Below are positions 37,421 through 60,114 of a stretch of 64,000 bases of DNA, one piece after another. The DNA is from Candidatus Methanomethylicota archaeon (GTDB lineage Archaea > Thermoproteota > Methanomethylicia > Methanomethylicales > Methanomethylicaceae): positions 1 to 64,000 of the forward strand of contig JARXPF010000003.1 of NCBI GenBank assembly GCA_029887765.1, given 5' to 3'. The notes under the pieces are model-generated. The model was not told the origin of the DNA. It searched no databases and saw only the letters and a list, made by a program, of their open reading frames with translations. How positions within the stretch are numbered: the stretch's first letter is position 1; the number at the start of each line of letters is the position of its first letter. A program made the position numbers and the translations under genes.

Positions 37421-37578
37421 GGGGCTGTGGTCTAGCAAGGTATGACGGCAAGACGGGGGACTGCCTCCGTCTCGTTAAGGGCTCCAGAGGTTTGCTTTAA
37501 TTATGACCTATTGGGATGATATACTTCTGGAGCTGCGGGGAAACCCGCATGTCGGGGGTTCAAGTCCCTCCAGCCCCA
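37421..37578 (+). tRNA. tRNA-Trp (anticodon CCA) with two introns
   Basis: Exon 1 is 37421-37449, exon 2 is 37479-37487 and exon 3 is 37543-37578; joined they give a 74-base tRNA. Acceptor GGGGCTG/CAGCCCC, D arm 'GGTCTAGCAAGGTATGAC', anticodon stem GCGGG/CCCGC, loop CTCCAGA with CCA at 37484-37486, T arm with TTCAAGT; CCA is encoded at 37579-37581. Intron 1 (29 nt) splits the anticodon stem between positions 28 and 29, a non-canonical site, and folds as a hairpin. Intron 2 (55 nt) is at 37/38 and contains ACTTCTGGAGC (37523-37533), complementary to 37481-37491 around the anticodon, and a box C-like GATGAT at 37515, as in tRNA-Trp introns that guide methylation in Haloferax and Pyrococcus. Intron edges may shift by one base. 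Confidence 0.88.
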
Positions 37579-37616
37579 CCATTTAAATAATTGATTTTCG
37601 TAAAATTATATGGTGG

Positions 37617-41471: not shown

Positions 41472-43068
41472 TATAAATGATTTAAAAAATCTTCTTAAAA
41501 TGGAAATTAAAGAAAATGAATTATTTGAAATATTATCTCTTTTAAAATGTGAAGTAGAAACAATAATAAATAATAAGATTACTATTGAAGTTACTTCAGA
41601 TAGGCCAGATTTATTTAGTTGTGAAGGAATAGCAAGAGCTATTAAAATTTATCTTAAAGGATATGAGTGGGAGCCTAAGATTTTAAATTCAGAACCTATA
41701 AAACTTTTTGTTGATAAAAGTGTAGAAAATATTAGACCATATATTGTTGCAGTTGCAATTAAAGGAGTGGAACTTAATGAAGAAGCTATAATACAAATCA
41801 TGCAACTTCAAGAAAAATTACATTCAACTTATTGTTCAAATAGAAAAAAAGGCTCTATAGGTATATATGATTTAGATAAAGTATCTCCACCTTTATATTA
41901 TAAAGCATTAAATCCAAAAGAAATAAACTTTATACCTTTAGGTTATTCTAAAGTAATGAATGGTTTTGATATATTAAAATATACTTCAAAAGGTATGGAA
42001 TATTCATGGATACTTGAAGGAAAGGATAAATTCCCACTTCTTTATGATTCTAAAGGAATAGTATTATCAATGCCACCAATAATAAATAGTGAAGATACAA
42101 AAGTAACAGAAAATACTAAAAATATTATAATTGATGTAACTGGAATTGATGAAAATATTATAAATTCATGCTTAAATATAATGAGTACTTCTATATTGGA
42201 AAGAGGAGGAAGTATTCAATTTTTTGAAATAGTATATGAAAATAGAAAAATTAAAACACCAAATCTTAATTCAATAAAGACAAAATTAAATATAAATACA
42301 GTTAATAAAGTATTAGGGTTAAATCTTAATTCAGAAGAAATAATAAAACTTTTAAGTAAAATGGGCCATAAAGTTTCTAATAATTTTGAAATAATTTCAC
42401 CACCTTATAGAATTGATATACTCCATGAAATTGATCTTATTGAAGATATTGCTATAGCATTAGGATTAAATAATATTCCTCCTGAAATTCCAAAAATTGC
42501 TACAATAGGAAAACCATTAAAAAATAGTAGAATAAGAGCAAGAATTAGAGATTTAATGATAGGAATGGGATTTCAAGAAGTTATAACCTATATTTTAAGT
42601 AGTAGAAATATACTTGAAGAAAAATCTCTTATGAAAAAAAGAGAATTTGTAGAAATTATAAATCCAATATCTTCAGAATATGCTGTGTTGAGAGATTGTT
42701 TAATTCCAAAATTATTATATTTCTTAAGTAGAAATCTTCACCAACCTTATCCACAACGTATATTTGAATATGGAGATGTTGTTTATATAGAGGAAGGTAA
42801 AGCTAAAATATCTACTCATTTAGCTGCAGTTATAGCTGATTATAAAGTAAGTTATGAAGATATACAAGCAATTGTTGTTTCTTTATTTAAAAATCTTTCA
42901 AAAAATATTAGTTTTAAACCTTATAATGATATGCCTTTTATAGAAGGACGTGCTGCTAAAATAATTTTAGAAGGAATGGAAATAGGTGTTGTAGGAGAAA
43001 TTTCTCCCAAAGTAATTATTAATTTTGGATTAGAAACTCCAGTTGGAGCTTTTGAATGTGAAATATAA
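41452..43068 (+). CDS. pheT: Phenylalanyl-tRNA synthetase beta subunit
   Basis: Beta chain with the B3/4 editing and B5 domains ('EVTSDRPDLFSCEGIARAIKIYL', given here only as the start 'EVTSDRPDLFSCEGIARA'), 'YRIDILHEIDLIEDIAIALG' and 'PFIEGRAAKIILEGMEIGVVG' near the end. The archaeal form of 538 residues lacks the bacterial extra C-terminal domains. Starts with TTG at 41452 inside pheS. Two structured RNAs follow before tyrS. Confidence 0.94.
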   Translation: MPKINIDINDLKNLLKMEIKENELFEILSLLKCEVETIINNKITIEVTSDRPDLFSCEGIARAIKIYLKGYEWEPKILNSEPIKLFVDKSVENIRPYIVAVAIKGVELNEEAIIQIMQLQEKLHSTYCSNRKKGSIGIYDLDKVSPPLYYKALNPKEINFIPLGYSKVMNGFDILKYTSKGMEYSWILEGKDKFPLLYDSKGIVLSMPPIINSEDTKVTENTKNIIIDVTGIDENIINSCLNIMSTSILERGGSIQFFEIVYENRKIKTPNLNSIKTKLNINTVNKVLGLNLNSEEIIKLLSKMGHKVSNNFEIISPPYRIDILHEIDLIEDIAIALGLNNIPPEIPKIATIGKPLKNSRIRARIRDLMIGMGFQEVITYILSSRNILEEKSLMKKREFVEIINPISSEYAVLRDCLIPKLLYFLSRNLHQPYPQRIFEYGDVVYIEEGKAKISTHLAAVIADYKVSYEDIQAIVVSLFKNLSKNISFKPYNDMPFIEGRAAKIILEGMEIGVVGEISPKVIINFGLETPVGAFECEI

Positions 43069-43094
43069 AAATATGTGAATAATATATATTATTA

Positions 43095-43190
43095 GCTGTA
43101 GGGCGATAGCGCGGGTTAAAGGGGCCAAGCAAGTAGAGCGTGGCTCAACGATGAGCGCGGCTTAACCCACACCCGCAACAGCCCTACAGC
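43095..43190 (+). ncRNA. Structured RNA 1 between pheT and tyrS, unknown class
   Basis: A GC-rich island in AT-rich surroundings. Its ends pair over ten bases (GCTGTAGGGC with GCCCTACAGC). Inside, GGGTTAA pairs with TTAACCC, which is followed at once by ACA; further in, GCCA/TGGC and GCTC...GAGC hairpins can form. The ACA after an inner stem recalls H/ACA guides, but the upper part does not give a clear kink-turn at the right distance. No protein frame is plausible. The sequence does not fit a tRNA, RNase P or SRP RNA. Strand is chosen from the neighbouring genes and the ACA position. Confidence 0.55.
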
Positions 43191-43198
43191 TTAAATAA
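43191..43198 (+). promoter_or_regulatory. Possible TATA box for structured RNA 2
   Basis: TTAAATAA lies about 25 bases before the first G of the second structured RNA, the usual distance of an archaeal TATA element. No BRE is obvious, and the whole spacer is AT-rich, so this is weak. Confidence 0.3.
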
Positions 43199-43219
43199 TA
43201 GCTATTTTTTAAAAACAAT

Positions 43220-43324
43220 GGGCGGACTGTCGGATAGATCCCGGTGAGAGAGAGCCCAATGAGTAGGATGAAACATCCTTCAATGAAATTGGGTGTTAGC
43301 ATCGGGAGACACGACAGTCCGCTC
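43220..43324 (+). ncRNA. Structured RNA 2, candidate H/ACA guide RNA
   Basis: A ten-base terminal stem (GCGGACTGTC at 43222 with GACAGTCCGC at 43313) encloses an irregular long hairpin: TCCCG/CGGGA, an internal loop, CCCAAT/ATTGGG (6 bp), a GA/GA kink-turn-like loop (GAGT opposite TCAATGAA) and a tip AGGATG-AAA-CATCCT. An ACA follows the inner stem ('GGGAGACAC'), and 15 bases separate the top of the internal loop from it, as in archaeal H/ACA pseudouridylation guides. The outer stem is unusual for that class. The target was not searched. Confidence 0.6.
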
Positions 43325-55869: not shown

Positions 55870-56374
55870 AATATGTAATCTCTCCTTGTCTATCTATAAC
55901 TGCAATTATAAGCTCTTTATTTGATAATTTTGCTTTATTTGAAATATTCCTAAGTTCAGAAATCTTTATTGTTTTTCCTTCTATTAATCCATATACAAGA
56001 TATTTTGCAGGTTCTTTTCCTATAATTGCTCCTTTTCTATAAACTCTAAATTCTAAATCTTTTCCATATCCTTCTTTTACAATATAACCTCTTCTTCTTA
56101 AATCAGAATAAAGTAAATATTTTAACCAAATATTTTCATCTTTTTTTGAAAATATATGTACTAAATCTTTGAAATTCAAAATTCTTCCTTCTTCATTTAC
56201 TATAATAATTTTCTCTTTATCAATTAAGAAAAGCGCTTCTACTTCTGAAAGTATGAGTTTATTATCTTCAATTTCTCCAAAATATCCTTGTTTATAAATT
56301 TCTTCAATTTTTGGACCAGTCATTACTATTTTTTCTCCATTGAAAATAGCTTTTGGTAATTCAGACAAATTCAA
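55844..56374 (-). CDS. endA: tRNA-splicing endonuclease subunit, catalytic His replaced
   Basis: A 176-residue EndA-type protein. The C-terminal domain has 'KYLLYSDLRRRGYIVKEGYG', 'LEFRVYRKGA' and 'AKYLVYGLIEGK'. The known triad in Methanocaldococcus is Tyr115, His125 and Lys156; here Y112 and K153 sit at the matching spacing, but the position of the His is P122 ('GKEPAKYLV'). It could therefore be a structural partner of an unseen catalytic subunit, as in heterotetrameric archaeal enzymes, or a divergent active enzyme. It should process the introns of tRNA-Trp and tRNA-Lys in this window. It is coupled to the UbiA gene. Confidence 0.85.
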   Translation of the reverse strand: MNLSELPKAIFNGEKIVMTGPKIEEIYKQGYFGEIEDNKLILSEVEALFLIDKEKIIIVNEEGRILNFKDLVHIFSKKDENIWLKYLLYSDLRRRGYIVKEGYGKDLEFRVYRKGAIIGKEPAKYLVYGLIEGKTIKISELRNISNKAKLSNKELIIAVIDRQGEITYYEALEINP

Positions 56375-59953: not shown

Positions 59954-60028
59954 AAGATCACCAAAAATATTCTTAAGATTTATAATTAGAGTTTATATTT
60001 ATTAGTATAGTGATATATTAAAGAGTGG

Positions 60029-60114
60029 CGGGCCCGCCGGGATTTGAACCCGGGACCAACGGGTTTCTTCTTTATTTAAAAGCCCGCTGCTCTACCTTGC
60101 TGAGCTACGGGCCC
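60029..60114 (-). tRNA. tRNA-Lys (anticodon UUU) with a 12-nt intron
   Basis: Minus-strand cloverleaf: acceptor GGGCCCG/CGGGCCC, discriminator G and encoded CCA (60026-60028). The D arm is 'TAGCTCAGCAAGGTAGAGCA', anticodon stem GCGGG/CCCGT, T arm CCGGG-TTCAAAT-CCCGG. The loop CTTTTA...A is interrupted at position 37/38 by about 12 bases (60065-60076, rich in A and G on this strand). Spliced length is 74. The intron is near the lower size limit for archaea. Confidence 0.92.

Follow-up and report, generated by a model that had tools for sequence, protein, structure and literature searches.

The intron of the tRNA-Trp precursor in Haloferax serves as a guide for modification of C34 and position 39 of the tRNA that carries it (PMC2584109, PMC4090602, PMC7994747), and because the guide duplexes for C34 and U39 include bases of the intron itself, methylation comes before splicing (PMC2584109). 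A 2024 review (PMC11408192) assigns this guide intron to Haloferax and further Euryarchaeota; some Thermoproteota may already stand among the 29 archaea listed in Additional file 4 of PMC2584109. Cm34 has also been found by mass spectrometry in tRNA-Trp of Sulfolobus acidocaldarius (PMC7668247).

An earlier note on a stretch of 64,000 nucleotides (the 'window', positions 1 to 64,000 of contig JARXPF010000003.1, assembly GCA_029887765.1) from a Candidatus Methanomethylicota archaeon (class Methanomethylicia, Thermoproteota) proposed that the tRNA-Trp gene at 37421-37578 contains two introns, the second a reduced form of the Haloferax/Pyrococcus guide intron in a different lineage. The computational analysis reported here finds that the element is real, conserved and functional-looking, and what it adds of most use is how widely the element is spread outside the Euryarchaeota.

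Structure of the tRNA-Trp gene

The gene divides into three exons and two introns, with exon borders computed from base pairing:

37421-37449, + strand: exon 1 of tRNA-Trp, positions 1-28 (29 nt owing to one extra D-loop base)
37450-37478, + strand: intron 1, 29 nt, at the non-canonical site 28/29
37479-37487, + strand: exon 2, comprising G29-G31, C32, U33, the anticodon C34 C35 A36 (37484-37486) and G37
37488-37542, + strand: intron 2, 55 nt, at the canonical 37/38 site
37543-37581, + strand: exon 3, from A38 to the discriminator A73 at 37578, then an encoded CCA (37579-37581)

Joining of 37421-37449, 37479-37487 and 37543-37578 gives, by computed base pairing, a tRNA-Trp(CCA) with the anticodon stem GCGGG/CCCGC and the loop CUCCAGA; folding that takes bulge-helix-bulge (BHB) motifs into account thus agrees with the original proposal that removal of two segments restores a proper anticodon stem and a CCA anticodon. 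The proposed non-canonical position of intron 1, at 28/29, is likewise upheld by a BHB core with a 4-bp central helix GACG/CGUU (37444-37447 with 37473-37476) and 3-nt bulges GC^A and AA^G, and the intron encloses a 9-bp hairpin of its own (arms 37451-37459 and 37464-37472). The corresponding BHB of intron 2 has the central helix CUCC (37482-37485)/GGGG (37537-37540) and the bulges AG^A and AA^A. The predicted fold of the 162-nt transcript lies at z = -4.46 relative to dinucleotide shuffles, none of 200 of which was as stable. Neither ARAGORN nor the Rfam tRNA model detects the tRNA-Trp gene at 37421-37578.

Two genes of the EndA family, with open frames of 190 and 178 aa and candidates for the subunits of a heteromeric splicing endonuclease, are present in the genome, one of them within the window:

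55871-56131, - strand: EndA-family splicing endonuclease gene (one of two), in the same window as tRNA-Trp

The same genome contains a fibrillarin gene that adjoins a Nop5-family gene, and two L7Ae-family genes; these C/D and EndA protein genes are necessary for the model developed below and are not specific to it. Elsewhere in the window, 43037-43316 (+ strand) gives a sub-threshold match to HgcG, an archaeal H/ACA-type RNA (25.9 bits against a gathering score of 77, E 7e-4), and at 60026-60114 (- strand) ARAGORN reports a tRNA-Arg with its anticodon at position 28, which may be a misread or interrupted gene.

Related genes and their distribution

Relatives were placed by a search of 61 genomes, from which 30 tRNA-Trp genes were obtained by homology, and 97 further contig stretches came from a pattern scan of named genomes that in part imposes GGGATGA, the spacing and YTCTGGAGC on that second set and not on the first 30. 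One pattern match, in Clostridiales (L083), was dropped as chance. In all, 101 distinct genes were parsed, of which 56 were aligned and 99 entered the tests of boxes, BHB motifs and hairpins. The gene's own family is represented by 17 sequences, with Methanomethylicus and Methanosuratincola as its other members, and a relative of the same genus (G001) has an identical gene region. The parsed genes include representatives of Bathyarchaeota, Methanomethylicota, Nezhaarchaeota, Culexarchaeum and Nitrososphaeria/Thaumarchaeota, and also of Hermod-, Baldr-, Odin- and Njordarchaeota.

A motif test finds intron 1 throughout the own family (17/17 sequences) and in 40/99 parsed genes, and the central helix of the intron 2 BHB retains 3 or 4 of its 4 pairs in every one of the 99. 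A covariance model (R1) recovers the element from 21/21 good genomes of Methanomethylicia, in 253/364 genomes of the phylum Thermoproteota (under strict filters, by which weak matches may be lost) and in 34/146 genomes of the Asgard phylum. A likely counterpart over most of the sampled Thermoproteota and part of the Asgard phylum suggests an old origin.

Several tRNA-Trp genes in this collection show other interruptions. Five from Bathyarchaeota (L031, L038, L047, L048, L070), together with others of that group, have an apparent extra variable-loop intron downstream of exon 3, bringing them to two or three introns; two from Hermodarchaeota (L045, L109) have an apparent T-loop intron after GGTTCAA; and in Culexarchaeum and relatives (L024, L025, L029, L049) the 28/29 intron is absent and the 5' exon is apparently interrupted before the D arm.

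A conserved helix across the 5' splice site of intron 2

The feature first noticed in intron 2 was an 11-base complement to 37481-37491, within the same precursor:

37523-37533, + strand: antisense ACUUCUGGAGC, pairing with 37481-37491 (G31-G37 and the first four intron bases)

The 11-nt helix (37481-37491/37523-37533) contains 10 Watson-Crick pairs and one G-U pair, and the alignment of relatives' tRNA-Trp genes that the earlier note had called for shows that the antisense recurs, with compensatory changes. Among the 56 aligned genes CUCCAGA and UCUGGAG are invariant, and the variation lies in the bases of the intron: i2 is paired to the antisense in every sequence (56/56: AU 28, GC 15, GU 13), and i3 in 37/56, by way of G-C, C-G, A-U, U-A and U-G pairs that include flips from G-C to C-G. 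The covariation score of the helix was reached by none of 500 shuffles, and in some distant sequences (L169, L170) an A37 stands opposite U in place of the G-C pair. Because intron bases beyond the splice site covary with the antisense, there is strong evidence, of a comparative kind, that a helix across the 5' splice site forms and is under selection; since the antisense also pairs with i1-i4, it should act on the unspliced precursor. The antisense and a GATGA at fixed spacing occur in every parsed tRNA-Trp gene, those 30 found by homology and not by pattern included, and the distance between GATGA and antisense is 6 nt in 101/101 genes, 30 of which were not selected by pattern.

Box elements and the guide for position 39

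Upstream of the antisense, intron 2 contains a putative C'/D'-like hairpin:

37503-37506, + strand: D'-like AUGA (CUGA or CGGA in most relatives, with GA nearly invariant)
37513-37519, + strand: C'-like GGGAUGA (G in place of U when compared with the box C consensus RUGAUGA)

The 'box C-like' motif reported earlier corresponds to this GGGAUGA, the C' of a C'/D'-like pair and not a terminal box C. The apical stem of the hairpin consists of CC (37507-37508) paired with GG (37513-37514), and the AUGA/GGGAUGA pair has the potential for G.A pairing, with the stem abutting the G.A pairs directly and without a 3-nt bulge. The standard K-turn of C/D RNAs has a 3-nt bulge next to the G.A pairs and a U preceding GAUGA. 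Intron 2 has neither this bulge nor, in GGGAUGA, the U of the consensus RUGAUGA, and shows no evident L7Ae K-turn of the standard type. A K-turn formed by re-registering the CC/GG stem was rejected: the stems of relatives, both extended ones (L041, L064, L045) and those with GNRA loops (L167, L186), run without a break into the G.A pairs.

The remaining boxes were sought in all 99 introns. A CUGA box D was found in 0/99, whether at the place that would direct C34 or anywhere 3' of the antisense, so that the lack of a clear D box remarked upon in the original gene proves to be general. At 37421-37578 the place of box D for C34 (37535-37538) reads GCGG, and with no box D the N+5 rule does not apply to C34 in this gene. 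A box C (RUGAUGA, at most one mismatch) on the 5' side of the D' guide occurs in 2/99 introns, the present gene not among them, and a search of Rfam, with hits up to E = 1 considered, matched no C/D family. Two substitutes were considered and rejected: a shifted box D, CUGC, directly 3' of the antisense, which would direct A36 instead of C34 and is not conserved, and a terminal box C in the 5' part of intron 2, which is absent. With boxes D and C and the K-turn bulge missing, intron 2 falls outside the canonical box C/D RNAs by their defining tests; the boxes are degenerate in Halobacteria, too (PMC2584109). Since the element keeps the antisense and C' and dispenses with these parts, it raises the question of the minimal requirements of a C/D guide.

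A second guide is present in many relatives. Under the N+5 rule, applied to the 101 genes, the base to be modified is the partner of the fifth base 5' of D'; in many relatives the bases that precede D' (which reads CUGA, CGGA or a variant) have a match in exon 3. The best register falls on C39 in 53/101 genes, mostly with runs of 8-11 pairs; automatic assignment put D' in the wrong place in some genes (L031, L041, L074 and L105 among them), so counts at 39 are slightly low, and a register-free count was made beside it. Runs of at least 7 pairs at 39 are found in about half of the genes and in 0.05% of shuffled guides. In the gene's own family the run at 39 has a length of 0 or 1 in 17/17 sequences, and a D' guide for some other tRNA position in that family was rejected, the best runs being short and scattered. 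An order neighbour (L018) and a Nezhaarchaeota-like family do carry the 39 guide, from which comparison it was probably lost in the own family. One family with Sulfolobus-like features (f27, tRNA-Trp starting GGGCCC) keeps both guides; the element is a candidate source of the Cm34 seen in Sulfolobus tRNA-Trp. A single Bathyarchaeota genome (G283) has two tRNA-Trp genes with guide introns (L038 and L060), the 39 guide of L060 containing a mismatch.

Two exclusive folds and competing explanations

The antisense helix and the BHB helix share C32-C35 and, since they use the same exon bases, the antisense and the BHB central helix are mutually exclusive. The guide fold also contains a hairpin at the other end of the intron:

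37535-37548, + strand: hairpin GCGGG-GAA^A-CCCGC, in which exon 3 is paired to a copy, within the intron, of the 5' anticodon strand

In that fold the 3' splice site sits in the GNRA loop (GAAA) of the hairpin. With intron 1 removed, the predicted energies are -56.2 kcal/mol for the guide fold and -43.3 kcal/mol for the BHB fold, a difference of about 13 kcal/mol. A 3' hairpin of at least 4 bp is present in 28/42 genes without the 39 guide against 4/57 with it (p = 3e-10), and in 12/25 against 4/57 when the own family is excluded (p = 5e-5); because the 4-bp threshold was set post hoc and the sequences are related, not independent, this association is a lead and not proof.

We consider it probable that intron 2 is a reduced, non-canonical box C/D-type guide that directs 2'-O-methylation to C34 of the pre-tRNA-Trp containing it, and that it acts before splicing; very probably it works like the known tRNA-Trp guide, and descends from it or parallels it. 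The inferred course, with its protein binding and methylation, would be as follows. Before splicing, the antisense would pair with the anticodon loop and with the bases that open the intron, and the C'/D'-like hairpin would recruit L7Ae-Nop5-fibrillarin; C34 would be methylated in cis or on a second precursor molecule. Refolding to the BHB form would follow, the splicing endonuclease would remove both introns, and the exons would be joined. Where the C39 guide of relatives has been lost, as in the own family, the local hairpin may now hold exon 3.

The same two folds could serve splicing control without any methylation, the antisense helix and the 3' hairpin keeping both splice sites hidden until the BHB form is favoured by tRNA folding, by a protein or by temperature, and the likeness to C/D RNA being an ancestral relic. 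The exclusive helices, the greater predicted stability of the guide form once intron 1 is out, the 3' splice site within a GNRA loop and the accompaniment of 39-guide loss by the hairpin would all suit such an arrangement; we nevertheless think it unlikely, because on its own it leaves unexplained the GATGA at fixed spacing, the exact register of D' on C39 and the precedent in Haloferax for both sites. A stand-alone methyltransferase that makes Cm34 after recognising the shape of the intron-containing precursor through the intron helix would account for the missing canonical boxes, and eukaryotes do have intron-dependent protein enzymes (review: PMC11408192); a guide that places C39 by the N+5 rule, as seen in relatives, is, however, specific to the C/D mechanism, and this analysis identified no candidate enzyme, so that an explanation of this type appears quite improbable. 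That the complementarity is due to chance, or the exon borders wrong, in an otherwise ordinary two-intron tRNA gene, draws on the fact that those borders rest on computation, but it is contradicted by covariation and by conservation, with compensatory changes, across two phyla, and can hardly be credited.

An extension of the guide reading, possible but rather doubtful, is that a guide without box D doubles as a conformational 'checkpoint', that the straight C'/D' hairpin is ancestral to Thermoproteota and Asgard archaea, and that the 39 guide has repeatedly been replaced by the 3' splice-site hairpin. One fold would then sequester the anticodon and both splice sites while permitting methylation of C34 and, as splicing would need refolding into the BHB form, only a methylated precursor would be spliced.

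Relationship to described introns

The closest described system is the box C/D intron of pre-tRNA-Trp in Haloferax volcanii, Pyrococcus and further archaea (sR50; Cm34, Um39), which lies in the same gene and at the same canonical site; as in that intron, the antisense of intron 2 to the C34 region spans the exon-intron border, and the D' of relatives guides position 39 by the N+5 rule. Unlike the Haloferax intron (103 nt), intron 2 has 55 nt and neither a CUGA box D nor a box C, and it further differs from the Haloferax/Pyrococcus intron in a C'/D' hairpin without K-turn bulge, in the loss of the 39 guide from its own family and in the presence of an extra intron at 28/29. The tRNA-Met intron of Nanoarchaeum equitans (PMC3491384) also has C/D-like elements and a proposed guide role, but belongs to a different tRNA. 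Intron 1 resembles the non-canonical and multiple BHB introns of Thermoproteota (in its 28/29 position, its BHB core and the two EndA-family proteins of the genome), and is unusual among them only in sharing a gene with a guide intron. The Haloferax/Pyrococcus intron guides the same pair of sites, C34 and 39, so intron 2 is likely to be homologous or equivalent to it, and the exact N+5 register on C39 in relatives lends support to the original suggestion of a reduced form in a different lineage.
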